A DNA stretch of 64,000 nucleotides from Anatilimnocola floriformis (GTDB lineage: Bacteria; Planctomycetota; Planctomycetia; Pirellulales; Pirellulaceae). A program made the position numbers and the translations under genes. Below, piece by piece: positions 1 to 30,025 of the stretch. Numbering within the stretch: position 1 is the first letter of the stretch; each line of letters begins with the position of its first letter. Location of the stretch: NCBI RefSeq assembly GCF_024256385.1, contig NZ_JAMLFW010000001.1:1302001-1366000 (forward strand), read 5' to 3'. The notes below the pieces were generated by a model. That model was not told the DNA's origin. It saw only the letters and a program-made list of their open reading frames with translations, and did not search any database.

Positions 1-2826
1 ATCGCGAGCGCGGAGTATCGAGTCAACGGCGGCGACTGGTTGCCGATGGCTGCCGTGGATGGTGTTTTTGATGAAGTGCCCGAGGACGTGACGGCCACGT
101 TCACGCTGGGCGCTGCCGGAATCACTGTCCCAGGCAATTACTCGATCGATGTCCGCGGCAAGGATTCGGCAAATCAAATCGGCGCGTCGGCTTCAGTGAC
201 GCTGGAAGTGCTCGGCAGTGCGCCAGATATCACCAGCGATAACAGTGCCACCTTCACAGTCGGCTCGTTCAGCACTTTTAATGTCACGGTCGATGGTGTG
301 CCGACGCCGGAACTCGATATCACTGGCCAACTGCCGAGCGGTGTGTCGTTTGTCGATAACGGCAATGGCACGGCGACCCTCAGCGGTACGCCGGATGTCG
401 GCGAAGGGGGCGTGTACACGTTCACGATCATGGCGAGCAACGGCATTCTGCCGATGGACTCGCAGGAATTTACGCTGACGGTCAACGAAGCGCCGACCTT
501 TGCCAGCGCGAATGCGACCACGTTCACCGTGGCTGTGCTTGGTTCATTTACCATCACCACAAACGACTTCTATCCTTCGCCAGCTACGATTACCTATACC
601 GGCAGTCTGCCGAACGGCGTGAGCCTGGTCGACAATGGCGACGGCACGGCGACTCTCTCGGGCACTCCTGCCGGCGGAACGCAAGGGAGCTATGAGATCG
701 CACTGACGGCGAGCAACGGCGTTGCTCCAAACGGCACGCAATCATTCACGCTGACGGTCAATCCGCCGCCGATCGATTACGGCGATGCTCCTGATACCTA
801 CGGCACGCTGCTGGCCTCGAATGGCGCTCGCCACGGACTGCAAGGACCGACGTTGGGGGCGACGCGCGATGCCGAAGCCAATGGTCAACCGAACCTAACC
901 GCGACCGGGGACGGCGCTGATGAAGATGGCGTCGTGCTGCCGGCCAATTTGTATGCTCGTCTTGGAGCCAAGATCACTGTCACTGCTTCGGCGGCCGGAC
1001 GTCTCGATGCCTGGATCGATTTCAATCGCAACGGCGTGTTCGATGCCAGCGAGAAGATCGCCGATGGCGTGAATGTGGTGACTGGCAGTAACACACTAGC
1101 GATCAACGTGCCGACCAACACGGTCGCAGGCGCGAGCTATGCTCGCTTCCGTTTGAGTTCGACCGGCGGATTGTCTCCCACCGGTGCAGCCGCTGATGGC
1201 GAAGTGGAAGACTACGCAGTCAATCTCGTTTCGCCGGCGCTTGGTTCGATCGCGGTGATCGATGACCCAGAAAATCCGGGCCACGGCTTGCTCGTGGTGC
1301 GCGGTACCAATTACTTCTATGAAACGATCACCGTTGCGCCGACCGCTGGTCAGCCCGGCAAGGTGACCGCCAGCATTTCTCCCGGCGTGTCTGTACCGGG
1401 CATCGACCTGGCGAGCTTCGATCGAATTGCCATCTTCGGTGAAGCCGGTTTTGATCAGATCACCATCAACAGCGCCATCACCAAGCCGAGCGTGATCTAC
1501 GGCGATGCGGGTTTCGACACGATCAACGGCGGTGGCGGCAACGACGTGATCTACGGCGGCGCCGATTACGATTCGCTCAACGGCAACGGTGGTGACGACA
1601 CGTTCGTCAACGAAGGTGGCGCCGATAGCGTGAATGGCGGCGCGGGGACCGACACGATCATCAAGATCGGCTCGGGGACGTTCAACCTGTCGAACGGCTC
1701 GGTGTCGGATGGTTCCGGCTCGGCTTCGCTCAGCAGTATCGAAAAAGCCAGGCTTATCGGTGGTGCCGCCGCGGATACGTTCAATGTGGCGGGCTGGAGC
1801 GGCATCTCTGCCGAAATCGAAGGTGGCGGCGGTGCGAATTTGATCGCCGATAGCGCCGATGGCAACTTCGTGCTGCAGCCGAATCAATTGGTCCGAACCG
1901 TCGGCAGCACAACCACGACCATTCAGTTCACCAACATTCAAACCGCGCGACTGACGGGGGGCTTTGGCAACAACAACTTCGATCTCTCGGGTTGGACGCA
2001 AGCTGCGATTCTCGATGGCGGATATTTCGGTACTGACTCAGTAACCGTGGCTGGCGATGTGAGCTACTTGTTGTCGGACACGATGCTTCTTCGTCCATCG
2101 TTCGGTCAGATTCGGCTCGCCGGATTTGAAAACGCGGTGCTGAATGGCGGCGCGTCGAACAATTCGTTCGACCTGATCAACTGGAAGAGCGCCGCAACGG
2201 TGAACGGCCTCGGGGGCACTGACAAGATCATCGCCGCTGGCAATGTGAACTTCACGCTGACGAATACGACGCTCACGCGGAGCACCGGCGGCGCAATCGC
2301 GCTGGCGAGCATCGAGCAAGCTGAACTCAGCGGTGGCGCTGGCGCTAACACGATCAACGCGTCGGGATTCTCCGGCAACGTGAAGCTCGACGGCGCTGAC
2401 GGCAACGACACGCTCACCGCTGGCAGTGGCTTGGCGATTCTGTTGGGTGGCGCTGGCAACGACATTCTCAACGCCGGCACGGGGCGCGCCGTGATGATCG
2501 GCGGCTTGGGTGTCGACACGTTGAACGGCGGCAGCAACGACGACTTGCTCGTTGACGGCACGACAGTGCACGACAGCAGCAGCGCGGCCCTCGCGCTGAT
2601 CCTCGCTGAATGGGCGTCGGCCAGCAGCTACAACGATCGCGTCGCGCACCTCACCGGCACGCCGGGCGGGGTGAATGGCAGCACGCACCTCGGCGGCAGC
2701 AACGTGATCCACGATACCGCGGTCGACTCACTGTTCGGCAACGCGGGCGATGATCTGTTCTTCGCGAAGCTCACCGCGCCGAATCAGGACAACGTGACCA
2801 AGACGAGTGGTGAAACGGCACAGTAG
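1..2826 (+). CDS. Secreted Ig/GEVED/RTX-repeat surface protein, 5' truncated
   Basis: The reading frame is open from the first base of the window, so the true start and any signal peptide lie upstream; 941 residues are visible. Two tandem putative-Ig (He_PIG-like) repeats at about residues 74-253 share the pattern LPxGVS-VDNGxGTATLSGTP. A GEVED-type domain follows at about 260-408, with the diagnostic DYGDAPDTY start and GEVEDYAVNL end. Residues from about 485 onward carry RTX-like nonapeptides of the GGxGND type (for example GGGGNDVIYGG and GGAGNDILNAG), interleaved with longer beta-rich repeats. These features suggest an exported, calcium-binding, surface-attached or released protein. GEVED domains are abundant in planctomycete giant proteins. 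No catalytic domain is visible. The minus-strand gene downstream converges on it across two hairpins. The family assignment is strong; the specific role is unknown. Confidence 0.88.
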   Translation: MASAEYRVNGGDWLPMAAVDGVFDEVPEDVTATFTLGAAGITVPGNYSIDVRGKDSANQIGASASVTLEVLGSAPDITSDNSATFTVGSFSTFNVTVDGVPTPELDITGQLPSGVSFVDNGNGTATLSGTPDVGEGGVYTFTIMASNGILPMDSQEFTLTVNEAPTFASANATTFTVAVLGSFTITTNDFYPSPATITYTGSLPNGVSLVDNGDGTATLSGTPAGGTQGSYEIALTASNGVAPNGTQSFTLTVNPPPIDYGDAPDTYGTLLASNGARHGLQGPTLGATRDAEANGQPNLTATGDGADEDGVVLPANLYARLGAKITVTASAAGRLDAWIDFNRNGVFDASEKIADGVNVVTGSNTLAINVPTNTVAGASYARFRLSSTGGLSPTGAAADGEVEDYAVNLVSPALGSIAVIDDPENPGHGLLVVRGTNYFYETITVAPTAGQPGKVTASISPGVSVPGIDLASFDRIAIFGEAGFDQITINSAITKPSVIYGDAGFDTINGGGGNDVIYGGADYDSLNGNGGDDTFVNEGGADSVNGGAGTDTIIKIGSGTFNLSNGSVSDGSGSASLSSIEKARLIGGAAADTFNVAGWSGISAEIEGGGGANLIADSADGNFVLQPNQLVRTVGSTTTTIQFTNIQTARLTGGFGNNNFDLSGWTQAAILDGGYFGTDSVTVAGDVSYLLSDTMLLRPSFGQIRLAGFENAVLNGGASNNSFDLINWKSAATVNGLGGTDKIIAAGNVNFTLTNTTLTRSTGGAIALASIEQAELSGGAGANTINASGFSGNVKLDGADGNDTLTAGSGLAILLGGAGNDILNAGTGRAVMIGGLGVDTLNGGSNDDLLVDGTTVHDSSSAALALILAEWASASSYNDRVAHLTGTPGGVNGSTHLGGSNVIHDTAVDSLFGNAGDDLFFAKLTAPNQDNVTKTSGETAQ

Positions 2827-2944: not shown

Positions 2945-3964
2945 TTACTCAGCACTCGAGCGCGAGCCGTCGGGCGATGCGCCGATGGGATGGCCGGGCG
3001 GCAACGGGCGGCCGGCGGATAAGAAGCCGAGTTTGAAGAGTTCTTGTTTGACGACGCGGAAGTCGTCGAAGCTGTCGGGATAAACCCAGAGCGTGACGGT
3101 GGCACCCTTCGACGTGGGAGCTGCGAGTCGGCTGCGGAATTGCGAGCCTTGGCTGAGGGCCTGGTCGATGGTTTCGCCGATCGGGTCGTCGACTTGTACG
3201 AAGAAGAATCGCTCCAAGCCGACGCGCGTTTGCCGCGAGACGGCCATCTTGGTTTGCACGTCGACGTCGAATCGCCGCATGATGTACTTGCCCGCGAAGC
3301 CGTTCATTACCGGCAACGAAAATTCGGCCCGCGGCGTGTCGGCGAGCTTCGGCGCCTTCTGCGGCAGATCGGCTTTGAGGAGTTCGATCATTTCATCCCA
3401 CGGCAGATACACGATCTTGCCACCGAGCATGCGGAAGTGGAGTTCCTTGCCGAAGACGGTCTTGGCCATCGGCGTGGGTAAGTGCGGAATGACGTTGACC
3501 GGTTTTGAATGATCGACGGCAAGGGCTTCGATGTCGAGCTGCTCGAGTTCCTTGAGCGAAGCGACGCGCTGCGCCTCGAGGTCGAATTTTTCCTTCTCCT
3601 CGGCGCTAAGCTGATCGCGATGTTTGGCCATTGCCTGTTCGGCGATCGTGACCAGCAACTGCAAACGAGCTCGCTCCTGAGCCTTCATCTGCAGCTCTAG
3701 ATTTTGATCCGCAAGACTTCGCTTCATTTCGTAAACACTGCGTTCCGCATCGTCGGCAGCAGCCGTAGCAGCGTCGACATCAGGCAGAGAAGCGATCTCG
3801 GCGGTGGGGATTTTTGCGAGCGCATCGGCAGTGAAATTGCGTTTTGCTTCGATGGCGAAGACCAACACCAGGATGATGATGATGCCGACGAGGATGGCCA
3901 CGACGTCGAGAAACGAGTCGGTGCTCGGAGCTTCGACGTGTTCGGCCCGTTTGTGTCCTTTCAC
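2945..3964 (-). CDS. TolR/ExbD-like single-pass coiled-coil membrane protein
   Basis: The protein is 339 residues from a GTG start that overlaps the upstream stop codon as GTGA, so translation is probably coupled; a longer reading frame upstream runs into the preceding gene and is not used. The N-terminus is short and cytoplasmic, followed by one membrane span at about residues 20-40 (FLDVVAILVGIIIILVLVF). An aspartate (D20) sits at the start of the span, where the TolR/ExbD/MotB families carry their proton-conducting Asp. A charged helical, probably coiled-coil stretch follows at about 65-150, then a compact periplasmic domain. It is the third gene of a channel-like operon and shows weak C-terminal resemblance to its neighbour. 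The stator role is inferred from topology and context; substrate and partner are unknown. Confidence 0.68.
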   Translation of the reverse strand: MKGHKRAEHVEAPSTDSFLDVVAILVGIIIILVLVFAIEAKRNFTADALAKIPTAEIASLPDVDAATAAADDAERSVYEMKRSLADQNLELQMKAQERARLQLLVTIAEQAMAKHRDQLSAEEKEKFDLEAQRVASLKELEQLDIEALAVDHSKPVNVIPHLPTPMAKTVFGKELHFRMLGGKIVYLPWDEMIELLKADLPQKAPKLADTPRAEFSLPVMNGFAGKYIMRRFDVDVQTKMAVSRQTRVGLERFFFVQVDDPIGETIDQALSQGSQFRSRLAAPTSKGATVTLWVYPDSFDDFRVVKQELFKLGFLSAGRPLPPGHPIGASPDGSRSSAE

Positions 3965-6384
3965 TGCGCGGCCTTTCTTTGCAATTCGAAGCCGCTCCCT
4001 TGCAGCAGGTTTTGCAATGAATCGAAGTGAGACTCGGCGCCGCGCGTGACTTCGAACTGCAAGGACGGTTTCCAATAACCGTGCGTCATCGCTGGGCCCC
4101 AGGAGTTGAGTTGCTTTTGCACGCCTTTGACAAAGGCTTCGGCTTCCGCTGGCTGCAGTTCGGGCGAAACCGGAACAATGGTCGCCGGACGATCGTCACC
4201 CTTTTCGGGCACGATCACCAATTTGTCGGGAAGGGCGACAACGCGCACTGGCCGAGTGACTGCCGTGGTGCGACCTTGAGCGCCAGGCAAACCCCAGTTG
4301 GCCCCAGCGCGCGTGGCCGCGTGCGAACGAGGACTGCGCTTCGGCGGTGGATCGCCGCCTGGTGGCGGCGTTGTCGAAGTGCCGCCCGGAACGCCGCCGG
4401 GACCGCCACCTGGAGAACCGCTGTCGCTATTGCCGCCCGGTGATTGATTGCCTGCCATTCGAGCATTCGTGGGATCGGACGATTGTTGTTGTTGTCCGCC
4501 GCTCATGCCGCCACCGCCGAGCGGCGTCATGCCGTTCATCGCAGTCATGCCCGCCATGCCGCCAGCGCTGCCCTGCGCGCCACCTTGTGAACCGCCGGCG
4601 CTGCCATTGTTGGCTGTGGAACCGGAGGCATTCGTGCCGCCGACGACACCACCCTGATATTGAGTTGTGTTGCCGCCGCCCCCCTGCCCTGCTGCTCCAC
4701 CGGCGTAATTTCCTGAGCCGTTGCCGTTTCCTTGGCCGGTGCCGCCGCCTGCGTATCCACCACCCGTGCCGCCGGATCCATTTCCGCCACCGCCAGCAGT
4801 TCCGCCTGGACCGCCTGTTCCACCATTTGGATATTGACCGCCGCCGTTGCCGGTAGCGCCGCCTTGTTGGCCGCCGTTCGCGGCTTGCATCGCATAAGGG
4901 CCAGTTCCGCCGCCACCGGCGACACTGTTGCGTGGCACTCCGCCCTGCGCGGGCAGACCACCGACACCACCGCCGCCAGTTCCACCGGGCACACCGCCAG
5001 GAACTCCGGAACCCGTGCCGCCAGATCCGGGAACACCAGAACCATTTCCACTGCCCGTTCCGCCATTGCCACCCGAGCCGGTGCCGCCATAACCGCCGCC
5101 GCCGTTGCCAGGTTTTCCACCAGGAAAGCCTAACGAGCCGCCGCTACCACCGCCGCCGATGAGCGCGCTGCTAATGCCAGGCATGCCATTGCCGCCAGAG
5201 CTACCGCTGGCCGCTAAGAATTGAACGGGTGCGCGACCTTGGCCATTGCCTGCGGGAGCGCCGCCCTGTTGACCACCTGCGACTCCGCCGGGCGCTCCAC
5301 CAGCGCCGCCGGGTCCGCCCGCGCGACGAGTTGCCGCGGTCGTATTTTCGCCGTTGCCATTGGCCACACCGCCGGAACCGCGCGAGGCATCGACGGCCGA
5401 TTGAAATTCTTCTTGATCCTCGGGCGCGAACGAGACCAGCGATTCTTCGCTGCCGAATTTGCGCGGCATCGCAGCGGCCAGCATCATCTGACGTTGGCGG
5501 GCTTTGATCACGATATCTTCGAGCACACGCTGCATCGCGGCGCTCGGTTTGCCGAACTCGAGATTCTTGTTTTCGGAAACGAGTTCGTAGCCGAACTCGT
5601 CGTCCCAACCTTTCAGCGCTGACCGCGCGGCTTGGTATGCGACGATGCCGCTCGGTCGCACGACGAGCAGCGGATACGGCTCACCTGGTTCGCCAGATCG
5701 TTTGAAAGCTTCACGCATGCAACGGAGCGCGGCGTCGAGCGGATTGCCGGGACCGAGCGGGCCGTTGAAATCGTCAGGGCCGAAGACGAGACCTTCGGGA
5801 TGGAGCACGACACCTTCCACGCGGCACTCGATGTAGATCGGCCGTCGCTTCGTGCCGTTCGGGCCGTCGTAGGGAACGAGTGCGTACGAACTTTCCTTCG
5901 AGGCAGCCGCTTTCTTTTTTTCACCGAGATCTTTTTTGCGTTGCTCGATGGCTTCTTTGATTTTCGCCAGTTCGGCCTGGCTGAGGGCGAGCTGGTTCGG
6001 TTTCCCTTTTTTGCCGCGATCGATTTCCTCGGCGCGGCTCATCAGCGTGCGGGCATCGATTTGCAAACGGCGGATGTGATCGTCGAGATGCGAAGCCTTC
6101 AGGCGGGCATCAGCGAGTTCGTCGACCTGCTGCTGACGTTGTTTCTCATGGATATTCTGTCGCCATTGTTCGTCTTCGATCTTTTCGTGCGCGGCTTTGC
6201 GCTCGGCAGAGACAGTCTCCGCCTGTGGTCCAGCAGCGGCGCGCGCAGCGACCTGGCCAGCGTCGAGCCGGGCTTGTTGCATGAACAAGACCAGCACGAC
6301 AATCAGCGCGCCCATGGTGCAGATCAAAACGGCTAGGAACGGAAAGAGCGCGACCCCCGGTCCCCGCCGCGGCTTTCGACTCAT
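3961..6384 (-). CDS. TolR/MotB-like protein with ~350-residue glycine-rich arm
   Basis: The protein is 807 residues, with its ATG overlapping the upstream stop as ATGA. The order is a basic N-terminus, one membrane span at about 11-35 (ALFPFLAVLICTMGALIVV), a long charged coiled coil at about 60-170, and a folded domain at about 170-330. An extreme Gly/Asn/Ser/Gln/Ala-rich low-complexity region covers about 330-685, and a folded C-terminal domain about 690-807. Unlike its operon partner it has no aspartate in the membrane span, so if the two are TolR-like paralogues only the partner could carry protons. The glycine-rich part is GGN/GGT/GSG-type with no fixed period. It could be a flexible periplasmic tether, a wall-spanning arm or a matrix-forming segment. 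Nothing identifies a substrate. The family placement rests on N-terminal topology and the adjacent channel gene. Confidence 0.66.
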   Translation of the reverse strand: MSRKPRRGPGVALFPFLAVLICTMGALIVVLVLFMQQARLDAGQVAARAAAGPQAETVSAERKAAHEKIEDEQWRQNIHEKQRQQQVDELADARLKASHLDDHIRRLQIDARTLMSRAEEIDRGKKGKPNQLALSQAELAKIKEAIEQRKKDLGEKKKAAASKESSYALVPYDGPNGTKRRPIYIECRVEGVVLHPEGLVFGPDDFNGPLGPGNPLDAALRCMREAFKRSGEPGEPYPLLVVRPSGIVAYQAARSALKGWDDEFGYELVSENKNLEFGKPSAAMQRVLEDIVIKARQRQMMLAAAMPRKFGSEESLVSFAPEDQEEFQSAVDASRGSGGVANGNGENTTAATRRAGGPGGAGGAPGGVAGGQQGGAPAGNGQGRAPVQFLAASGSSGGNGMPGISSALIGGGGSGGSLGFPGGKPGNGGGGYGGTGSGGNGGTGSGNGSGVPGSGGTGSGVPGGVPGGTGGGGVGGLPAQGGVPRNSVAGGGGTGPYAMQAANGGQQGGATGNGGGQYPNGGTGGPGGTAGGGGNGSGGTGGGYAGGGTGQGNGNGSGNYAGGAAGQGGGGNTTQYQGGVVGGTNASGSTANNGSAGGSQGGAQGSAGGMAGMTAMNGMTPLGGGGMSGGQQQQSSDPTNARMAGNQSPGGNSDSGSPGGGPGGVPGGTSTTPPPGGDPPPKRSPRSHAATRAGANWGLPGAQGRTTAVTRPVRVVALPDKLVIVPEKGDDRPATIVPVSPELQPAEAEAFVKGVQKQLNSWGPAMTHGYWKPSLQFEVTRGAESHFDSLQNLLQGSGFELQRKAAQ

Positions 6385-7724
6385 GCCGCGCGGCTCCGAG
6401 ATTGTGAATTAAGGTCCAGATGAGCAGCATCGCTGCGGCCCAGACGGCTGTTGAGCAGGTGAATGGCCGCGGCCAGGCTCATGACGGTTTCTTCGAAGTT
6501 CTTCGCCCCGGCCAGCGCACCCAGGTTGCTGTTGAGCGCTCGTTCGAGCTGCACAACTTCGCCGGAAGCGCGAATGGCTTGCGTCATCAGTTCTCCCTGG
6601 CGCGACATCTCTTGTTGCTGCGCGTAGAGGAGCTTGGCGTTTTCCGAGAGCGTTCCTTGCCACTGCTCCCAGCGACGCTGAACTTGTTCGGTCGACGATT
6701 GTTCGATGTGAGCCATGTTCACGGCGTGTTGCTGCAGCACTTCGCCCAGCGATGCCGTGAGCGCGGCTTGCAGTTGCGCACCGGTTTGCTGCTGCACTTG
6801 TTGCCAACTGTTGTGTGCAGCCGTGATCGATTGTTGCCAGAGTTCGGCTTGGCGGAGGACGAGTTGTTCGGTGCCAGCGACGACGAGTTGAGTCATGCGG
6901 TGAATGGCTTGGAGTTGTGGATCGCTCGAAGCGCCGACCATTTCAAAGCGGCCGACGAGTTCTTGCGAAGCCCGCGAGTCGACCTGAGCAAGCAATTCGA
7001 TTTCGAAATAATCGATGCCCCATTGAATGAAGACGAGGAAGATCGAGAAGCAGAGCGCGATCGCGGTGCTGTCGAACTTCACGTACAAGCCGGAGAGCAA
7101 CCCCTGCATGGCTGCCTCCATGCCGTTGCCGCCGTCAGCGTGATTTCCCAGGCTGCCACCGAGGTGGCTGAGGGCGTCGGTGATACCGGTCACCGTACCG
7201 AGAAACCCGAGCATCGGAATGGCCCAGATCACGATCCGAATCAGCGAGAAACTTTCTTGCTGACGGTTGCTGTCCATGTCGGACAGGTATTTCAATTCTT
7301 CTTCGAGCCGATCGGCCGAGCCGTTGCGCTCGACGATCTCGAGCCCCTGGCACAAGCGGCGCCCGAGATAAGACTCTTGCACTTTCTTCGGCAGGGCGGC
7401 GAGTTTGTCGAGCAATTCGCCAACGACGCTAACCGGCTGTGGGCCAGCTTGTTCGCCAAGCGTTACGCCGCCGAGCGAGCTTTGTTGCCGCAGCACGTCG
7501 AGCGCTTTGAGCACCAAGCCAGCGATACCCACGCAGAAGAGCGTGGTCTCGATCATGTTGATCGGGTGACCGGCGAAATAACGCACGAGGGCGGGATGAT
7601 GCAACGGCCCTTTGAGCAGCAGTGCATAAAACACCGCAGACATCCCGAGGCCAAACATGAGGGGCCAACCAACGCCGCTGATCAACGACCAGAGAGCGTT
7701 TTGCTTGTGGGCTGGTTGCGACAC
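6381..7724 (-). CDS. MotA/TolQ/ExbB proton-channel family protein
   Basis: The protein is 447 residues from GTG at 7724, chosen because AGAAAGGA lies 7 bases upstream; the frame stays open to 7877, and a GTG at 7751 is an alternative. Four membrane spans are visible at about 11-37, 57-76, 161-182 and 219-238. The third contains the family signature AIPMLGFLGTVTGITDAL, and the fourth has the conserved Thr/Ala-rich face (STAIALCFSIF). A large cytoplasmic region lies between spans 2 and 3. The last 200 residues are Gln/Ala-rich, probably coiled coil, which is unusual for TolQ/ExbB. Known members form pentameric inner-membrane channels that drive TolR/ExbD/MotB partners; here two such candidates follow with 4-base overlaps. 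Neither a TonB-like gene nor flagellar genes are nearby, so the output of this motor is unknown. Confidence 0.8.
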   Translation of the reverse strand: MSQPAHKQNALWSLISGVGWPLMFGLGMSAVFYALLLKGPLHHPALVRYFAGHPINMIETTLFCVGIAGLVLKALDVLRQQSSLGGVTLGEQAGPQPVSVVGELLDKLAALPKKVQESYLGRRLCQGLEIVERNGSADRLEEELKYLSDMDSNRQQESFSLIRIVIWAIPMLGFLGTVTGITDALSHLGGSLGNHADGGNGMEAAMQGLLSGLYVKFDSTAIALCFSIFLVFIQWGIDYFEIELLAQVDSRASQELVGRFEMVGASSDPQLQAIHRMTQLVVAGTEQLVLRQAELWQQSITAAHNSWQQVQQQTGAQLQAALTASLGEVLQQHAVNMAHIEQSSTEQVQRRWEQWQGTLSENAKLLYAQQQEMSRQGELMTQAIRASGEVVQLERALNSNLGALAGAKNFEETVMSLAAAIHLLNSRLGRSDAAHLDLNSQSRSRAA

Positions 7725-8270: not shown

Positions 8271-8552
8271 TTAGAAGCCGATCCGCAGGCCGAAATTGCG
8301 GTTCTGCAGGTAAATGCCATTCGGCTGCTGATACGCTGGGTAGGGCTGATAGTAGTACGGCATCGGCGGCGGATAGTACGCAGCCCGCGGCGGGCCGTAG
8401 TAACCTTGGTTCCAGCCACCGCCGTTGTAATGGTTGTGGTTGTGGTGGTGATGGTGTGGGTGATAAGGGCCGTTCGCGCTCGCGGTGGCGGTGAACAGGC
8501 CGCCCAGCGACAGAGCAGATACGGCAACCAGGGTATAGATGAAATTCTTCAT
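8271..8552 (-). CDS. Small exported His/Tyr/Pro-rich protein
   Basis: The protein is 93 residues. ATG at 8552 is chosen because GAGGAG lies 7 bases upstream; a TTG two codons earlier is an alternative. The N-terminus is a clear Sec signal (MKNFIYTLVAVSALSLGG...) with a likely cut after ATASA. The mature part is about 70 residues: a His/Asn cluster (HPHHHHHNHNH), a Gly/Trp stretch, then Tyr-Pro-rich sequence, ending NFGLRIGF. The histidine cluster suggests metal binding, but no domain is recognised. The terminal Phe with alternating hydrophobics resembles an outer-membrane beta-signal, although the protein is too short for a barrel by itself. It is the last of three similar small genes on this strand, each monocistronic with its own ribosome-binding site. 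Function unknown. Confidence 0.72.
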   Translation of the reverse strand: MKNFIYTLVAVSALSLGGLFTATASANGPYHPHHHHHNHNHYNGGGWNQGYYGPPRAAYYPPPMPYYYQPYPAYQQPNGIYLQNRNFGLRIGF

Positions 8553-8865
8553 AACCAAACTCCTCAGGATCGAATCAGGGGGGCCGGGCGATGTTGCCGC
8601 GGCAACGGAGGAGTTAAAAAGCAGCAGCCGTGCCAGAATTCCTCGATTTGCTGTAAGTGATTGTATCTTATTGACTTACGGGAGATGTTGTTTTCCCGGC
8701 TTTGACCAGAGCTGTCAGCAGTGACATCGTTGTGACGTCACCCTGTTGTCGATTTGATGAACCCAAGAAACGCTCGCAGGCCGTCGCTGATAGCAAACGG
8801 CCTGCAGGTAAATCCGTAGGTCGGACCATTGGTCCGACCAAGAATCTGTTACCACCTCAATTCCA
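8553..8865. other. 313-bp upstream region of the small His-rich gene
   Basis: No gene is supported. It contains the ribosome-binding site of the gene starting at 8552, an AT-richer stretch at about 8655-8700 where a promoter is most likely (TACAAT on the minus strand, no good -35 found), and a REP-like element at 8815-8839. Confidence 0.5.
8815..8839. repeat. Single REP-like palindrome
   Basis: The sequence CGTAGGTCGGACCATTGGTC followed by CGACC contains the near-perfect palindrome GGTCGGACCATTGGTCCGACC. It is a variant of the paired elements at 7897-7989. Confidence 0.6.
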
Positions 8866-9126
8866 CTACCACCGGTAACACGGCTGCACGTAGCACGGCG
8901 GCCGATAGCAAGGCGGGCTGTAGCACTGCGGATAATAAACCGGTGGGCGATAGCACTGAACCGGCGGCCGGTAACAGCCACCGTAACCTCCGCCATAGCC
9001 ACCACCGTATCCGCATCCACCATTGCCCCAACCACTGCCGCCGTTGCCAGCTTGGGCCGATGAAGTGAAGACACCGCCGAGCGACAGAACTGCGACGACG
9101 AGCAGAGAGTAAATGAGCGACTTCAT
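8866..9126 (-). CDS. Small exported protein with CYRPPC-type repeats
   Basis: The protein is 86 residues from ATG at 9126, with AAGGGA 8 bases upstream; the open frame extends to 9195 but lacks a ribosome-binding site there. A Sec signal (MKSLIYSLLVVAVLSLGGVF) ends near SSAQA. The mature chain has a Gly-rich first half (GYGGGYGGGYGG), then Cys-Tyr-Arg-Pro-Pro-like repeats (CYRPPVQCYRPPVYYPQCY and on), with about nine cysteines in 60 residues. This composition recalls cross-linkable structural proteins or metal-binding peptides. The signal peptide closely resembles that of the neighbouring small gene (IYxLxxVxxLSLGGxFT), pointing to paralogy of the leaders. No named family is recognised. Confidence 0.72.
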   Translation of the reverse strand: MKSLIYSLLVVAVLSLGGVFTSSAQAGNGGSGWGNGGCGYGGGYGGGYGGCYRPPVQCYRPPVYYPQCYSPPCYRPPCYVQPCYRW

Positions 9127-9285
9127 GAGACACATCCCTTGCATGTGAGAATTGATATTAAGCACTGAGTTCAGCGACTGCTGACTTCGTTGCATAAGAT
9201 CAGAAGCGAGGGATTCGCCGCTTTGTTACGAAGCGGCTGCCAAGAATATGCGTTCGAGCAACGAGTGCCCACGCGCAAAAAAAGC

Positions 9286-9333
9286 GGGAAGTTGCCCGCC
9301 ATGTCTATTCGGCACGGCTCGCGACAACTTCCC
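9286..9333. repeat. Inverted repeat between two small-protein genes
   Basis: GGGAAGTTG at 9286-9294 and CAACTTCCC at 9325-9333 are perfect 9-bp arms separated by 30 bases and preceded by seven A residues on the plus strand. Read on the minus strand, the hairpin is followed by a run of seven T residues, so it could terminate the gene that starts at 9716. Confidence 0.45.
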
Positions 9334-9398
9334 GTAAATGAAACCCTCCGCACCGTACATCGCTGCGAAGGGCTGATAACATCTTCAACTGCTACTGA

Positions 9399-9716
9399 CT
9401 AAAACCGAACGCCCACGCGGGCCGGCCCAACGCCCACACCAATGCCGCGGCCGTAGTAACCACCACCGTAGTAGCCGCCGCGATAACCACCATAGTACGG
9501 ACGGGCGTTGTAATAACCGCCGCCGTAATACGGGTTGCCTCTATAGTACGTGCGATAAGGCGCGACGTATCGCGGCCCGTAGTTATAGTTGTAGCGCGGT
9601 GCGTAGTAACCACCGCGGCCGTAGCGCACGTATGTCTGCGCGTCGGCGCTCGATGTGAAAGCGCCGCTGACGGTCAACAATGTCGCGGCTACGACTGAGA
9701 GAAGAATCGATTTCAT
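9399..9716 (-). CDS. Small exported Tyr/Gly/Arg-rich protein
   Basis: The protein is 105 residues from ATG at 9716, with CGGAG about 9 bases upstream. A Sec signal (MKSILLSVVAATLLTVSGAF) ends near SSADA. The mature part is dominated by Gly-Tyr-Tyr, Tyr-Arg and Pro-Tyr repeats (GGYYAPRYNYNYGPRY, GGYRGGYYGGGYYG) and ends PARVGVRF, again a terminal Phe as in the relative at 8271-8552. Tyr/Gly repeat proteins of this kind are common but uncharacterised in planctomycetes. An envelope structural or adhesive role is only a guess. Confidence 0.72.
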   Translation of the reverse strand: MKSILLSVVAATLLTVSGAFTSSADAQTYVRYGRGGYYAPRYNYNYGPRYVAPYRTYYRGNPYYGGGYYNARPYYGGYRGGYYGGGYYGRGIGVGVGPARVGVRF

Positions 9717-18276: not shown

Positions 18277-18438
18277 GGGAGCGAACAGATTCTGCCGCAA
18301 TGACAGCAAAAAAGCTTGCAGAAATGTGTTCCGATGAAACAGAATCAGAGGTTGCGACCAATTACACTAGGTTGATCAGAGTTCGCGACGAAAAGACGCA
18401 CCCCCTTAGCAGCCAGAAGAAAGCCCACCGAGGTGACA

Positions 18439-19290
18439 ATGCACGGGAACGCGGAGCCAGCGCGGAGTGAAGACCGCCATGGCGGCAAGGATGCACAGCG
18501 CGATGCAGCGGCAAACTCGATGCCGACGCCCGTTCGCCGGGCTGACCATCGGTTTGGACAATACGAGATCAAATTCCTGCTGGGTGAGGCCACGGCCGAA
18601 CTCGTAAAGGACTGGGCTCGTGTCCACATGTCGCGCGACCCAGTTGCTGCGTGCGACGAGCGCGAGCTCTATCCCGTACACAGCGTGTACCTCGATACAC
18701 CCGCCCTCGGCGTTTTTGGGCGGGCCGGAGCGCTCCGCACGCGGAAGTATCGTCTGCGCCGTTATGGCAACGAAGACACCATCTGGCTCGAACGTAAAGC
18801 CAAGGTCCGCGGCCGCGTGAAAAAACGCCGCACCGCGATCAGCGAAAGTGAGCTGGCCTGCGTCTATCAATCGGCGCCGCCGGAGCACTGGTCGGGACAT
18901 TGGTTCCGCCGCCGCGTGGCATTGCGCCAACTGCAGCCCGTCTGCTCGGTCACTTACGAACGCTTTGCCCGCGTCGGCCTCACGCCCGAAGGGCCGATTC
19001 GCATGACGCTCGACCGCGCCATTGGCGGTTGTGGCCTGCGCGATCTGGATGTGAATACCTGGGACGTGCCCCGTGGTTCGCTAGAGGGCCTGCAACGGCT
19101 CAGCGGCCTGTGCATTCTCGAGTTGAAGTATCCCACGTCACTTCCCTCGCTCTTCAAGGGAATCATGAGCGACTTCGCGCTGGAGCCTCTCAAGGTCAGC
19201 AAGTTTCGCACTTGCATGCAAACCTGGGTGGTGCCGGGCGGACAGGAAGAAGCGTCGTCAGAAGATGGCGATTCCCGGGCCGTGGCCTGA
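18439..19290 (+). CDS. VTC-domain protein (polyphosphate polymerase-like)
   Basis: The protein is 283 residues from ATG at 18439; an in-frame GTG at 18433 is an alternative start. The VTC tunnel-domain motifs are present in order: RFGQYEIKFLL near the N-terminus, VHSVYLDTP, LRTRKYRLRRYG, WLERKAKVRGRVKKRR, SVTYERFAR, RMTLDRAI and CILELKYPTSLP near the end. In yeast Vtc4 these basic and acidic residues line a tunnel that polymerises ATP gamma-phosphate into polyphosphate; bacterial homologues are mostly untested. A DUF4956 membrane protein follows after 34 bases, a pairing common in bacteria. CotH, which often joins the pair, is absent here. Confidence 0.85.
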   Translation: MHGNAEPARSEDRHGGKDAQRDAAANSMPTPVRRADHRFGQYEIKFLLGEATAELVKDWARVHMSRDPVAACDERELYPVHSVYLDTPALGVFGRAGALRTRKYRLRRYGNEDTIWLERKAKVRGRVKKRRTAISESELACVYQSAPPEHWSGHWFRRRVALRQLQPVCSVTYERFARVGLTPEGPIRMTLDRAIGGCGLRDLDVNTWDVPRGSLEGLQRLSGLCILELKYPTSLPSLFKGIMSDFALEPLKVSKFRTCMQTWVVPGGQEEASSEDGDSRAVA

Positions 19291-19324
19291 TTTCTAAAAC
19301 GTCTGGATTGGAAATCATTGCTCC

Positions 19325-20014
19325 ATGGGAACCTGGCTGCACCACGCATTATTCGCCGAAGAGTCGAAGAATCTCCTCCCGTGGGATTCGATCCTCGCGC
19401 GACTCGTTCTCGCCTTTCTCGCCGGCTGGTTGGTGGCCGTGGCGTATGCCTGGGGCCGGCGCAATTCGCTCACGGGCACGACGTTTCCCGGCACGCTAGT
19501 GCTGATGACCATTCTTATCGCCATGGTCACGCAAGTGATCGGCGATAATGCAGCCCGTGCGTTCGGACTCGTTGGCGCGCTTTCCATCGTCCGCTTTCGC
19601 ACGGTGATGCAGGACACGCAGGATGTGGCCTACGTCATCTTTGCTGTGGCCGTTGGCATGGCCGTGGGCGCTGGGCAACCGATTGTCGCTGCCATGTGCT
19701 GGCTGGGCGTGTCAGTCGCTGCGACCATCTTTCGCTACTTCCCATCCGTGAATGTGACGACGGGAGTCGCCGTGCTGCACATTCGCCTCGGCCTCGGTCG
19801 CAACCCCGAAACTTCGCTCGAACCGGTCATCGCCGAAGTGACCACGAAGCGGGAAATGACGAGCGTCGAAACAGCCAAGCAAGGCGCCGCCGTCGACGTC
19901 GAATATCGTTTGCAGATGCGGCCTGATGTCTCGCCGGCAACGCTGGTGACGAAGCTAAACCAAGTGGAAGGTGTGCAGCAGGTGCAGTTCCGCAAGCACG
20001 TCCGCGACGACTAA
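19325..20014 (+). CDS. DUF4956 membrane protein paired with VTC gene
   Basis: The protein is 229 residues. Four membrane spans are visible at about 23-45, 55-75, 95-120 and 122-140. The conserved DUF4956 segment is GLVGALSIVRFRTVMQDTQD (about 81-100), followed by a cytoplasmic alpha/beta domain in the last 80 residues resembling an ACT/ferredoxin-like fold. It is probably co-transcribed with the VTC gene and plausibly anchors it or passes polyphosphate, but the biochemical role of DUF4956 is unknown. Confidence 0.85.
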   Translation: MGTWLHHALFAEESKNLLPWDSILARLVLAFLAGWLVAVAYAWGRRNSLTGTTFPGTLVLMTILIAMVTQVIGDNAARAFGLVGALSIVRFRTVMQDTQDVAYVIFAVAVGMAVGAGQPIVAAMCWLGVSVAATIFRYFPSVNVTTGVAVLHIRLGLGRNPETSLEPVIAEVTTKREMTSVETAKQGAAVDVEYRLQMRPDVSPATLVTKLNQVEGVQQVQFRKHVRDD

Positions 20015-26471: not shown

Positions 26472-29396
26472 TTAGTCCAATACCTCGCCGCGTAGCCACT
26501 TGGCGAGCAACGTGATCTCGGGCTTCGACAGCAGCGCCGGTTTGACGCCTGGTCCACTCTTGGCGAACCGCGGCATCCGGTCGTTGTTGTCGCCATAGAG
26601 ATCGGCATGGCCCGGATCGGCGATGAACCGCTCCAGCCATTCTTGCGAAGCCCAGCCGGTGAGATCAGGAGCAGCGCCGACGTCCCCCTTGTCGTGGAAC
26701 TTGTGGCAGTCGACGCACGAGGACGAGGCAAAGCTGGTCGCAAATGCGGTTCGGCCACGCATGATCGAGCCATCGTCGGTCGCGGCCTTGTCGGCGGCAG
26801 CTTGGGCCGGCAGGTTCGCTTCGGCGGACAGCGTGGCGATGATGTCGGTGACTGCTTTCTTGCCTTCTTCATCGAGTTCGGAGAAGTTGTCGCGGACGAA
26901 GTTCACCATGTCGCCTTGCTTGTGCTTCGTTTTGCCGAAGTACCGATCGCTGGCTATCTGCTTAGGATCTAACAAACCGGTCAGCCATTCGCGCGAACCA
27001 AAGGCCTGCAAGTTTGGCGCGGTTGGCCGTTTGGCGACGATGCCGCCGCCCGTGGCATCGCTGCGGCTGTGGCACTGCGAGCAATTGGCAACGAACAGCT
27101 GTCGGGCTTGATCGTCTGACGTTGCTTTGAGGCGTTCAGCACCGACGATGGTGAGCTCGCGACTCTTTTCACCCAGCATCGACTCACGAACGACGCGGCG
27201 GGCATACTCTTCCGTTGGCGGCAACCGCGGCTGTGTGTCGGCGGGATCGTAATAATCGCCGCGCAACCAAGCCACGATCAACGACAACTCGCGAATGCTG
27301 ACGCTGTTCTTGTGCGGTTCGTCAATGTTCTTGGCGAACTGTGGCATGCGGTCGTTCTGATTTTGATAGAACCGCTCATGCGTCGGATCGGCGACAAAGC
27401 CGAGCATCCATTCGTACGAACCGTAGTGAGTCAAATCCGGCGCGAGGCCCAATTGGCCGTGATCGCCGAAGCGGTGGCATTCGTTGGTGCAGTATTGCTG
27501 CACGAGCTTGACACCGTGGCCAATCAGTTCTTTGTCCTTCTCATCCGCTGCGGTCTGGCTGCGGAGTTGTGCTTGGGCGGAAAGAGCGGCGACGATTGCC
27601 TCAATCTCGGTGTTCGGCGTTTCTTTGCCGTCCGGTCCTTTAATCTTTTCGTTCAACTCACCCGCATGCTTCTTCAGCCAATCGACCATTCGTCCTTCGC
27701 GGTGATTGGTATGGCCGAAATAATCGGCGATGATCGGCTTCAGGTGGTTGTCTGGGTTTTCTTCGTCGGCCGCGACTTTTTTGTTCGCTGACGGGACGGC
27801 TTCATCGACGCGCACAGCGGTCAGCTTCTCGGGAGTCAAGAAACCCTTGATCCACTCACGCGATGCAAATCCATACAAATTGGGAGCCCCGGCGTAGGGC
27901 AACTCCGTTGGATATTGGACTTTGCCGGCGGCATCGCGGACGACTCTGAGCGCCTTCTTCTTTTCCCCTGTCTCATGATTGACTTCGTTGGTTTCACCTT
28001 CTTTTGTGAGAGGGCTCAGCTTTTGATTCGCCAAGCGAATCGCTGCGGCCTGGTGTTCGTGGCCGTGCCCTTCTTCACCGGCAGTTGGTTTTGCATCGGC
28101 GGCTGGACCTCGGTAGTCATGGCAGCTCGCGCAGTGCTGACTAAACAGTCGCGGCCCTTGAGTGAGCGGATCATTACGGAGCAAATCGACAGCGCCGGAG
28201 CGTTGGATGAAACGTTTGTCGCTGAGATTGCTAGTCTGCCATTCACGGCGATTGATCAAATCGTACGTTCGCTGTGCATTGTGCTCCGCGAGCACTCGTG
28301 CTTTTTGAAAATCAGCATTTCCGGCGTCTTCGCGCAGCGCGAGCACCGTGAGCACCCCCGCACCCGCGATCAAGAACAGAATGAACGCGATATTGAATTT
28401 GTGTCCGAGCTTGCTGATGCCGATGAACGGCGCGAGCGCGAGCACGGTCATCACAATGCCGGGAATCACCAGCGCGCCGATGACTTCCTGCGTGCCATGG
28501 AAGTACTTCAGCAATTGGAACAGGAACAAGTAGTACCATTCCGGCCGGGCAGCATCGTAAGGTTCCGAAGGATCGGCAGGCGCGCCGAGTTCGGCGCCTT
28601 GATGGGCGAGCGGCAACGTGCCTTTCGCCGCGTTCGGTAGATCCCAGTGAATCACGCACAGTAGCACGATGGTAAGGAGCACTAAGCAACCGACAGCATC
28701 GAAGAGCACCTGCTTCGGCCAGAAGTACTCATTCTTATCGCCCGGGCGCGGATGCGTCGTAATGCCGTGCTTCCGAAAGACGGCGATGTGCGCGGCTAGA
28801 AAGATCACGAGCAGCGCCGGCAGCACGCCGGTGTGCATCGCGAAGAATCGCGTCAACGTGTGATGGCCATATTCACTGCCGCCGACAGCGAGCAGTTGCA
28901 GATCTTTGCCGACGACAGGAACCAGAGTCGCCAGGTTGGTCGCGACATTCGTAGCCCAGTAGCCCTTTTGATCCCAGGGCAACAAATAGCCCGTGAGTCC
29001 GAGGCCCATCACGATTTGCATCAGCACCAGGCCGAGCCAGTAGTTCACCTCGCGCGGTGCACGGTACGCGCCGTCGACAATCACTTGCAGCAAGTGAATG
29101 CCCATCACCACCACCATGGCTTGGGCCATGAAGTGATGCAGACCGCGGAGCAGCCAGCCGCCAGTCATTTCGTGCTGGATGTAATAGACGCTTTCGTACG
29201 CCGTCTGACTGCTGGGGCTATACGCCATCCACAGAAAGATGCCGGTGATCGCCTGCACGCTGAAGGCAAACACCAGCATGCTGCCGGTGATGTAACGCCA
29301 GCGAGCGCCGCCGGGAATTGGTTCGTACAGAGCATCGGCCAACATCTGGTTGTAACCGATGCGGCGGTCAAGCCATTGGCTCATTTGCCGAATCAT
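26472..29396 (-). CDS. Cytochrome b (b/b6-type) fused to four C-terminal heme c domains
   Basis: The protein is 974 residues. Residues about 1-215 form cytochrome b N-terminal helices with heme-ligating histidines in RGLHHFMAQAMVVVMGIHLL and MHTGVLPALLVIFLAAH. About 220-355 is the C-terminal b domain (PEWYYLFLFQLLKYFHG). About 400-974 is periplasmic with heme attachment motifs CASCH (about 418), CTNECH (about 634, a rare CX3CH spacing), CSQCH (about 771) and CVDCH (about 890). The four domains read as an A-B-A-B duplication. The gene overlaps the Rieske gene by ATGA. Together they would form a quinol-oxidising bc-type complex in which the c-type hemes carry electrons onward, a variant of the fused cytochromes known in planctomycetes. 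Confidence 0.86.
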   Translation of the reverse strand: MIRQMSQWLDRRIGYNQMLADALYEPIPGGARWRYITGSMLVFAFSVQAITGIFLWMAYSPSSQTAYESVYYIQHEMTGGWLLRGLHHFMAQAMVVVMGIHLLQVIVDGAYRAPREVNYWLGLVLMQIVMGLGLTGYLLPWDQKGYWATNVATNLATLVPVVGKDLQLLAVGGSEYGHHTLTRFFAMHTGVLPALLVIFLAAHIAVFRKHGITTHPRPGDKNEYFWPKQVLFDAVGCLVLLTIVLLCVIHWDLPNAAKGTLPLAHQGAELGAPADPSEPYDAARPEWYYLFLFQLLKYFHGTQEVIGALVIPGIVMTVLALAPFIGISKLGHKFNIAFILFLIAGAGVLTVLALREDAGNADFQKARVLAEHNAQRTYDLINRREWQTSNLSDKRFIQRSGAVDLLRNDPLTQGPRLFSQHCASCHDYRGPAADAKPTAGEEGHGHEHQAAAIRLANQKLSPLTKEGETNEVNHETGEKKKALRVVRDAAGKVQYPTELPYAGAPNLYGFASREWIKGFLTPEKLTAVRVDEAVPSANKKVAADEENPDNHLKPIIADYFGHTNHREGRMVDWLKKHAGELNEKIKGPDGKETPNTEIEAIVAALSAQAQLRSQTAADEKDKELIGHGVKLVQQYCTNECHRFGDHGQLGLAPDLTHYGSYEWMLGFVADPTHERFYQNQNDRMPQFAKNIDEPHKNSVSIRELSLIVAWLRGDYYDPADTQPRLPPTEEYARRVVRESMLGEKSRELTIVGAERLKATSDDQARQLFVANCSQCHSRSDATGGGIVAKRPTAPNLQAFGSREWLTGLLDPKQIASDRYFGKTKHKQGDMVNFVRDNFSELDEEGKKAVTDIIATLSAEANLPAQAAADKAATDDGSIMRGRTAFATSFASSSCVDCHKFHDKGDVGAAPDLTGWASQEWLERFIADPGHADLYGDNNDRMPRFAKSGPGVKPALLSKPEITLLAKWLRGEVLD

Positions 29397-30025
29397 GCTT
29401 TCCGCTCCATGTGGTCTTTGCCGGGATAGTAATTGGCGAACGCGACCCAGACTTCGCCATCCTTCACTTCGACGGCGAGCGGATCCATGTTGCGTGGGCT
29501 AGGGGACGGCATGATGCGAGCACCGTCCGTGGTGAACGCGCTCGTATGACACGGGCACTGATAACACTTGCGATCGGTCGAGTAAGCGACGAAGCAACCC
29601 GCGTGCGGGCAAATGGCATTGAAGCACTCGATGACCGGCAGGCCTTTGTCATCCTTCTTGCCGCTGTTGCGGAGATATACCGCGCCGACTGGTTGATCGG
29701 GCTCAACGGTCCAAATGTCTTTGAGATCGGCGATGACCGGCACTTGCACCGGCGTGCCATCGGCGGGAACCGTGACGAGCGAGGCGACGCGCCGCAGCGC
29801 GGGACCCGTGGTAGAACCAGAGGCCGCAGCTTGACGGCGTTTCTTGATGGCTGGATCGAGAAACAAAGCGAGGCCGGCGAGCGCGGGAAACATGCCCACG
29901 AGGCCGCCGATAACTGTAGCCAGGATGGCATAGACGACGTTTCGCCGTTTGGCCTGATCGTCGATGATTACCGTGCAATGCGGCGGATGCGGTTCTTTTT
30001 CAGAACCGGAACTAGGAGAGGTCAT
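29393..30025 (-). CDS. Rieske iron-sulfur protein of the bc complex
   Basis: The protein is 210 residues. One membrane span at about 28-55 follows a short cytoplasmic tail. The soluble Rieske domain carries both cluster-binding loops: CPHAGC (Cys and His ligands) and CPCHTS about 20 residues later, with the loop cysteines placed as in respiratory Rieske proteins. The sequence around the first loop (ECFNAICPHAGCFVAY) departs from the usual CTHLGC. It is the first gene of the bc operon and its stop overlaps the cytochrome b start (ATGA). The protein would take an electron from quinol at the outer face of the membrane. Confidence 0.88.
   Translation of the reverse strand: MTSPSSGSEKEPHPPHCTVIIDDQAKRRNVVYAILATVIGGLVGMFPALAGLALFLDPAIKKRRQAAASGSTTGPALRRVASLVTVPADGTPVQVPVIADLKDIWTVEPDQPVGAVYLRNSGKKDDKGLPVIECFNAICPHAGCFVAYSTDRKCYQCPCHTSAFTTDGARIMPSPSPRNMDPLAVEVKDGEVWVAFANYYPGKDHMERKA

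Follow-up and report, generated by a model that had tools for sequence, protein, structure and literature searches.

A 64,000-nucleotide stretch of the 8.93 Mb Anatilimnocola floriformis genome (hereafter the window) carries on its minus strand a three-gene operon, A-B-C, encoding a channel subunit of the MotA/TolQ/ExbB family (A) and two single-span partners (B and C). B has an alanine, Ala18, at the site where ExbD/TolR-type subunits have their proton-carrying aspartate. The original prediction had placed an aspartate at the span entrance of C and none in that of B; the absence from B holds, and C was found to have two, Asp16 and Asp20, rather than one. Among related planctomycetes, residue 18 of B is recurrently acidic, nearly always in genomes that hold a second type of channel protein, here called A'. 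We lean towards the view that the operon encodes a 5:2-type motor with a heterodimeric axle, in which only one subunit bears the acid and an arm is built in. The wider proposal is a core planctomycete rotary motor, whose one-Asp heterodimeric axle has its own force-transducing arm and has switched repeatedly between one and two acids, nearly always together with the ring clade; we regard it as a serious possibility which we would not yet call probable. The interest of the system lies in the lopsided axle and the repeated co-switch, not in the glycine of the arm.

Channel type and residue 18 of protein B

Residue 18 was read in 131 rows of B, which repeat some genomes, and is Ala in 123, Asp in six, and Thr and Ser in one each. 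At the loci with Asp in B and a readable A, the channel protein is A', in which GTVxHFG replaces GFLGTVxGI and FNTT replaces FDTT. When 396 genomes of the order were searched with five A' sequences, 19 had A' at E 1e-138 or better, the next match lying at 8e-79; few candidates per genome were scored in this search and in the searches of 294 and 244 genomes reported below, so that their negatives are weak. All 19 A' have HFG in the first motif and Asn in the second (FNTT in 15, FNAT in three and FNTS in one). In these 19 genomes residue 18 of B is Asp in 16, Glu in one (G319), Ser in one (G310) and Ala in one (G479), and G479 is the only one of them in which an FDTT-type A was found beside B. 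A locus was counted as having a canonical A if its best A shows an FD[TS]T motif. At these loci B has Ala at residue 18 in 114 rows, Thr in one and Ser in one, with no acidic residue in these 116 rows, some of which again come from the same genome. One of them, L097, is an armless paralogue, and the count for the armed family alone is 0/115. Four rows with an A of unassignable type and five with Ala in B but no A in view lie outside the 116. Both partners were found to be acidic only in 17 of the 19 A' genomes and at four of four distant loci described below.

A tree of 71 B domains was built from all acidic rows (20 rows from 17 genomes, three being second copies of the same genome) and the rows of the first locus set, omitting L085, L094, L095, L100, the armless L097 and the Ala rows of L104-L183, which belong to the second locus set. 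The acidic label requires eight changes on this tree, at least six of them forced by well-supported branches. In the channel tree, which took five of the 19 A', these five form one clade (support 100/99). A' could be an old paralogue kept sporadically, or it could have moved between lineages. A single origin of acidic B was considered as well and is ruled out by the trees, an earlier one with six acidic rows giving at least four forced changes.

Three stages are represented within one genus. In genus g11, G011 has a canonical A with Ala in B, G479 has both channels with Ala, and G591 has A' and Asp together with a degenerate A from which both pore motifs are gone. In genus g298, four genomes have a degenerate A between A' and B, the full layout being read for G408. 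Degenerate channel genes that have lost the GT and FDTT pore motifs were observed beside B in A' genomes at L341 (5048-6586) and L342 (1895-3424). The co-switch argues that the B helix faces the channel, since for a helix attached to the outside of the ring no change at this residue with ring type would be expected, and it makes a TonB-like role of B less likely.

Distant Q-R-R operons were found at four planctomycete loci (L335, L336, L339 and L340). Both partners have the Asp in all four (FSFQD and LFLD/LLLD), and the motif of their A is FETT in three and FVTT in one. The Ala of B therefore looks like a loss; judged from these sequences, two Asp look ancestral, with an apparent loss in B in both main branches. 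In a second, armless A-B-C system, B has a Ser (LFPFLS) and C an Asp (LDSLLD). The system is a paralogue of the window's, with several of its loci in the same genomes, and its A has FDTT, or FNTT in two loci. The association of acidic B is tied to the A' clade and not to the Asn alone. A simple charge trade between residue 218 of A and residue 18 of B was rejected as a general rule, being broken by FNTT with Ser in two loci and by FETT with Asp in three.

The three proteins, their spread and their surroundings

The three predicted genes were found on the minus strand (Table 1), with the ATGA overlap between A and B and the GTGA overlap between B and C that had been described for them. The A-B-C order on one strand is kept in 37 of 40 loci of the first set and in 70 of 80 loci of the second, so that these are real genes and not chance frames. 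The three exceptions of the first set are two loci without A in view and one (L098) without a match to B; 13 loci of this set belong to another order of the window's class. The second set comprises the best 80 of 454 relatives found by a pattern scan, of which 78 are planctomycetes and two are bacteria without finer assignment. A contig end cuts A in four of its 70 ordered loci. Of its ten exceptions, eight end with their contig before A is reached, one lacks an A in the 2 kb that remain of its contig, and in one A lies on the opposite strand. This gene order is shared by two orders of the class, the window's own and one other. A fixed partner gene was sought among the flanking genes and rejected, as the commonest flanking family occurs in 32 of about 139 loci read; it is a divergent gene whose product, judged by eye, resembles a MerR-type helix-turn-helix protein.

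Of 60 relatives searched, 59 have C, as do all 53 near-complete ones. Across genomes drawn evenly from the phylum, the profile of C matches 60 of 294 at E 1e-6, with seven candidates scored per genome, so that the misses are soft. It matches 48 of the 52 listed rows of the window's class, the window's own genome included, with E 1e-50 or lower in 47. A single-sequence search with C matched 26 of 244 genomes. The motif reading of the loci missed the C of L171 and L180 and the B of L172; the C of L171, read later, has the Asp, and that of L180 stayed unread. Alignment A1 omits L098 (no motif), L085 and L094, and alignment A2 omits L069, L085, L094 and L098 by choice. The central claim of the original prediction, a channel-type operon with two single-span partners and an Asp in only one of them, is supported by these data, and the operon is retained across planctomycetes together with a channel gene. 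Neither of the outcomes named in advance as refuting the prediction was obtained, a match of B and C to unrelated families or homologues mostly lacking the channel gene.

The channel protein A scores 34.6 bits with PF01618 (E 1.9e-8; cut-off 22.9), a family that all 35 aligned A homologues also match at E 0.01 or better. A is the weakest of eight matches to the MotA/TolQ/ExbB family in the host genome. Residues P170, G173, F174, G176, T177 and G180 of the first pore motif and F217, D218 and T220 of the second are invariant among the 35 aligned A. The long Gln/Ala-rich C-terminal stretch noted earlier corresponds to a tail of about 200 residues, which, by the topology of the family, is presumed to be cytoplasmic.

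The AlphaFold model of C (mb7653afaba29) has a mean predicted local distance difference test (pLDDT) score of 86.4. Two alignments of C, with 38 and 70 rows, have Asp16 and Asp20 in every row; of the C from the 19 A' genomes, all keep Asp20 and 18 keep Asp16. B and C pass the cut-off of no curated Pfam family, and their PADLOC hits are weak only. The model of B (m7912ad2fd65c) has a mean pLDDT of 64.7, arm included, and falls below 50 across nearly all of residues 336-683.

The two folded domains of B, D1 and D2, match each other as profiles with a probability of 95.1% (E 3.5e-8). The giant glycine-rich segment claimed for B is present, and it is a linker joining two copies of one domain. As a defining feature it does not hold up: arm length ranges from 98 to 519 residues (median 220.5) among the 124 of 131 B rows in which the arm limits could be set, and Gly makes up at least 20% of the arm in 72 of these 124. 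By the measure of this survey the window's arm has 402 residues, being the 8th longest, with 37% Gly. As length and Gly content both vary, the arm itself is kept and its size and glycine content are not. The alternative of an arm inserted within a single domain is ruled out by the match of D1 and D2 as copies.

Comparison of the span profiles of B and C gave a probability of 96% (E 4.5e-9), with Ala18 of B aligned to Asp20 of C. By this profile evidence B and C are related single-span subunits with homologous spans. The same register to the Asp of ExbD is seen in an alignment which is itself not significant. Searches for ExbD gave no hit of PF02472 to B or C up to E 10, and ExbD is not among the 25 families shown of 149 for 38 C homologues and of 218 for 66 B homologues. 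The C and B profiles retrieved mostly coiled-coil proteins from the PDB, with no ExbD, TolR or MotB among the best 60 of 347 and 155 matches, respectively. In Foldseek, the model of B found ExbD (8vgd) at rank 11 with a probability of 0.84, the top value of the best 50, a template modelling (TM) score of 0.61 on the target and E 0.21, and TolR (5by4) at rank 6 with a probability of 0.54 and E 0.14; for the model of C nothing credible was found, and neither ExbD nor TolR is among the best 50 of 820. The strand-helix order of the B and C domains resembles that of the known ExbD/TolR fold. Since sequence likeness is lacking and the fold matches have E above 0.1, we describe B and C as working like ExbD and not as being ExbD. 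In tandem ExbD pairs of the relatives, found by a motif allowing D, N, A, S or E at the Asp site, both Asp are kept in four of four pairs, so that paired partners in these genomes do not generally lose the Asp. No OmpA-type domain (PF00691) was found in B or C.

Table 1. Features of the A-B-C operon in the window and loci of the armless system
Feature	Coordinates	Strand	Description
Gene A	6381..7724	-	447 aa; channel subunit, MotA/TolQ/ExbB family, ~200-residue C-terminal tail
A pore motif, residues 170-181	7182..7217	-	PMLGFLGTVTGI; GTVxHFG in A'
A residues 217-220	7065..7076	-	FDST; FDTT in most canonical A; FNTT, FNTS or FNAT in A'
A Gln/Ala-rich tail, residues 245-447	6384..6992	-	from sequence
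Gene B	3961..6384	-	807 aa; single-span subunit without Asp
B transmembrane segment, residues 14-35	6280..6345	-	FPFLAVLICTMGALIVVLVLFM; profile match to the C segment
B Ala18 codon	6331..6333	-	site of the proton-carrying Asp in ExbD/TolR-type subunits, by C and ExbD register
B coiled coil, residues 52-162	5899..6231	-	AlphaFold helices 52-123 and 129-162
B domain D1, residues 164-300	5485..5895	-	pLDDT mostly >90; beta-beta-alpha-beta-alpha-beta
B arm, residues 323-699	4288..5418	-	Gly-rich, disordered; 377 aa, 39% Gly, pLDDT about 35
B domain D2, residues 700-803	3976..4287	-	second copy of D1; pLDDT mostly >90
Gene C	2945..3964	-	339 aa; single-span subunit with Asp16 and Asp20
C Asp16-Ser-Phe-Leu-Asp20	3905..3919	-	Asp16 and Asp20 invariant; entrance of span
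C helical hairpin, residues 63-152	3509..3778	-	AlphaFold helices 63-117 and 121-152
C periplasmic domain, residues 170-320	3005..3457	-	AlphaFold: beta-beta-alpha, insert, beta-alpha-beta
Armless A-B-C system	L327:4463-8248; L328:5198-8835; L329:5221-8976; L332:4147-7682		
Armless A-B-C system, further loci	L333:3134-6775; L334:2897-6985; L338:5344-9016		

In line with the original prediction, no Ton, Tol, Pal or flagellar family was found by Pfam among 11 window proteins scanned, ten from 9402-30025 and one at 40-2823. Elsewhere in the host genome, far from the operon, a TonB gene adjoins ExbB/ExbD and an OmpA-family gene adjoins a MotA-family gene; the OmpA matches of the genome are three, all away from the operon. 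The protein at 40-2823 (plus strand), convergent with the operon, is large and has GEVED, putative Ig and RTX calcium-binding repeats. Three small Gly/Tyr/His-rich proteins that look secreted are encoded directly upstream of A, likewise on the minus strand, at 8274-9716. Further away lie a VTC-domain protein followed by a DUF4956 protein at 18433-20011 (plus strand), and a Rieske protein followed by cytochrome b fused to cytochrome c domains at 26475-30025 (minus strand).

Proposed mechanism and competing explanations

Models of 5:2 motors assume an acid on each of the two axle helices (MotB, ExbD, TolR). We propose an inner-membrane ion motor built from A, B and C, with a ring of five A, the pore of which would be occupied by an unlike pair, one B and one C. 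Asp20 of C, perhaps aided by Asp16, would be the main carrier, taking up and releasing the proton, and the B helix would sit in the axle unable to carry one. The coiled coils would raise the paired domains, D1 of B and the periplasmic domain of C, above the membrane. The arm, 100-500 residues long, would let D2 of B reach a partner in the wall or the outer membrane, such that the force transducer would be built into the shaft and replace a separate TonB or TolA; the tether or wall-penetrating lever suggested earlier for the arm may be its role. The tail of A may report to the cytoplasm or be held from there, and rotation would proceed with fewer ions per turn than in a two-Asp motor. The 5:1:1 stoichiometry, the proton as the ion, the rotation, the target of D2 and the role in the cell are what we infer for this motor.

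Here, one helix is without the acid, its gene is kept across two orders, and lineages with another ring protein mostly have an acid at this site. If the proposal is true, the paired Asp of 5:2 motors would be dispensable and set by the ring. Natural matched pairs exist for a test of the axle carboxylate number and of how ring and axle set it: the window's genus versus G513, G049 versus G305 and G315, and the trio G011, G479 and G591. The system also points to a conserved planctomycete envelope machine.

Several results weigh against the heterodimeric axle. In G310, A' is the sole channel and B nevertheless has Ser. At three of the four distant loci the acid in A (FETT) coexists with Asp in B, and in two loci of the armless paralogue FNTT in A goes with Ser in B. 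The rows counted are related, and some loci of both sets come from the same genome. When compared with 32 sequences with an ExbD-like motif from the relatives' ExbD loci, one of which is plainly not ExbD, the B and C profiles reached a probability of at most 2.3%, and no Foldseek match of either model reaches E 0.001. The structure predictions cover single chains.

The lack of Asp in B would also make sense if C alone formed a homodimeric axle (A5C2) and B were a TonB/TolA-like transducer, with its helix outside the ring and its arm and D2 directed outward. The order of a span, a linker, here the disordered arm, and a terminal globular domain in B is the TonB/TolA layout, according to the available text of PMC12204202. 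However, the span of B is homologous to that of C, and the consensus span of 66 B has neither the His nor the SHLS motif that the same text gives as the TonB/TolA signature. In addition, residue 18 is repeatedly acidic together with one channel clade, which is not expected outside the pore, and all four distant relatives have Asp in both partners. We regard such a transducer as unlikely.

Separate A5B2 and A5C2 motors sharing one ring, with the ring acid D218 of A as the carrier in A5B2, would also speak against a heterodimer. D218 is found in 35 of 35 aligned canonical A; all 19 A', whose B partners are mostly acidic, have Asn there. In GldLM, a glutamate in the ring protein GldL is essential according to the available part of PMC8986121. 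Set against this, B adjoins C wherever both were read, and two loci of the armless paralogue combine FNTT with Ser. One locus, L098, has A and C but no B match, no search having targeted B without C. Taken together, we consider two separate motors quite improbable.

A Zorya-like anti-phage system, with a long-tailed ZorA-like channel and a motor partner, would fit the best PDB matches of the A profile, which are ZorA chains (8vvi, E 5.8e-5; 8qyk, E 0.0018), and a weak PADLOC hit of C to ZorB1 (E 0.01, residues 1-114), but it is very improbable, as all 53 near-complete relatives have the genes, where a defence island would be patchy, B and C have no OmpA-type domain, no effector family was found by Pfam among ten neighbours (PADLOC being run on A, B and C only), and the ZorA match runs mostly through the helical tail, where composition can mislead, while ZorA was absent from the results of a single-sequence search with A.

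Comparison with known systems

The suggestion that the system is of a kind not described was too strong. Operons of the Planctomycetes-Verrucomicrobia-Chlamydiae (PVC) bacteria in the order TPR, tolQ-like, two unlike tolR-like and vWA transducer have been published (PMC12204202, as far as its available text goes). Similar to the operon studied here, they have a tolQ-like gene followed by an unlike tolR-like pair, planctomycetes included; they are described with a vWA transducer downstream and a TPR gene. The part of that account available to us is silent on an Asp-less partner, on a duplicated domain around an arm and on a second channel type. No vWA gene was found among the 11 window neighbours scanned, no search with a vWA profile being made here or in the homologous loci. 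No title or abstract on the pairing of an Asp-less with an Asp-bearing partner in planctomycetes was found in open-access PubMed Central, and the main text of a paper on essential genes of P. limnophila, in its available part, does not mention TolQ, ExbB or MotA (PMC10632474).

Compared with ExbBD-TonB and TolQR-TolA, the operon shares the Pfam family of the ring, and C shares the Asp-bearing span and a domain of similar strand-helix order. B and C, in contrast, have no PF02472 match, and the operon has no TonB or TolA gene; there are long coiled coils, and B has an arm and a second domain. ZorAB, described as a 5:2 motor in the available text of PMC11890865, likewise has a long cytoplasmic tail on its ring protein, whereas ZorB is one gene with an OmpA/Pal-like wall-binding domain, in place of which the present system has two partners lacking such a domain, with genes present in nearly every relative. 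GldLM of Bacteroidetes provides a precedent for an essential ring acid (PMC8986121, available part), but it has two copies of one axle protein and is tied to type IX secretion. The Myxococcus gliding motor AglRQS also combines one ring protein with two MotB/TolR-like partners, and the pairing of AglQ and AglS as a heterodimer is stated there as unknown. According to the available text of that account (PMC9389320), AglQ and AglS both have the conserved Asp, whereas here B is without it.

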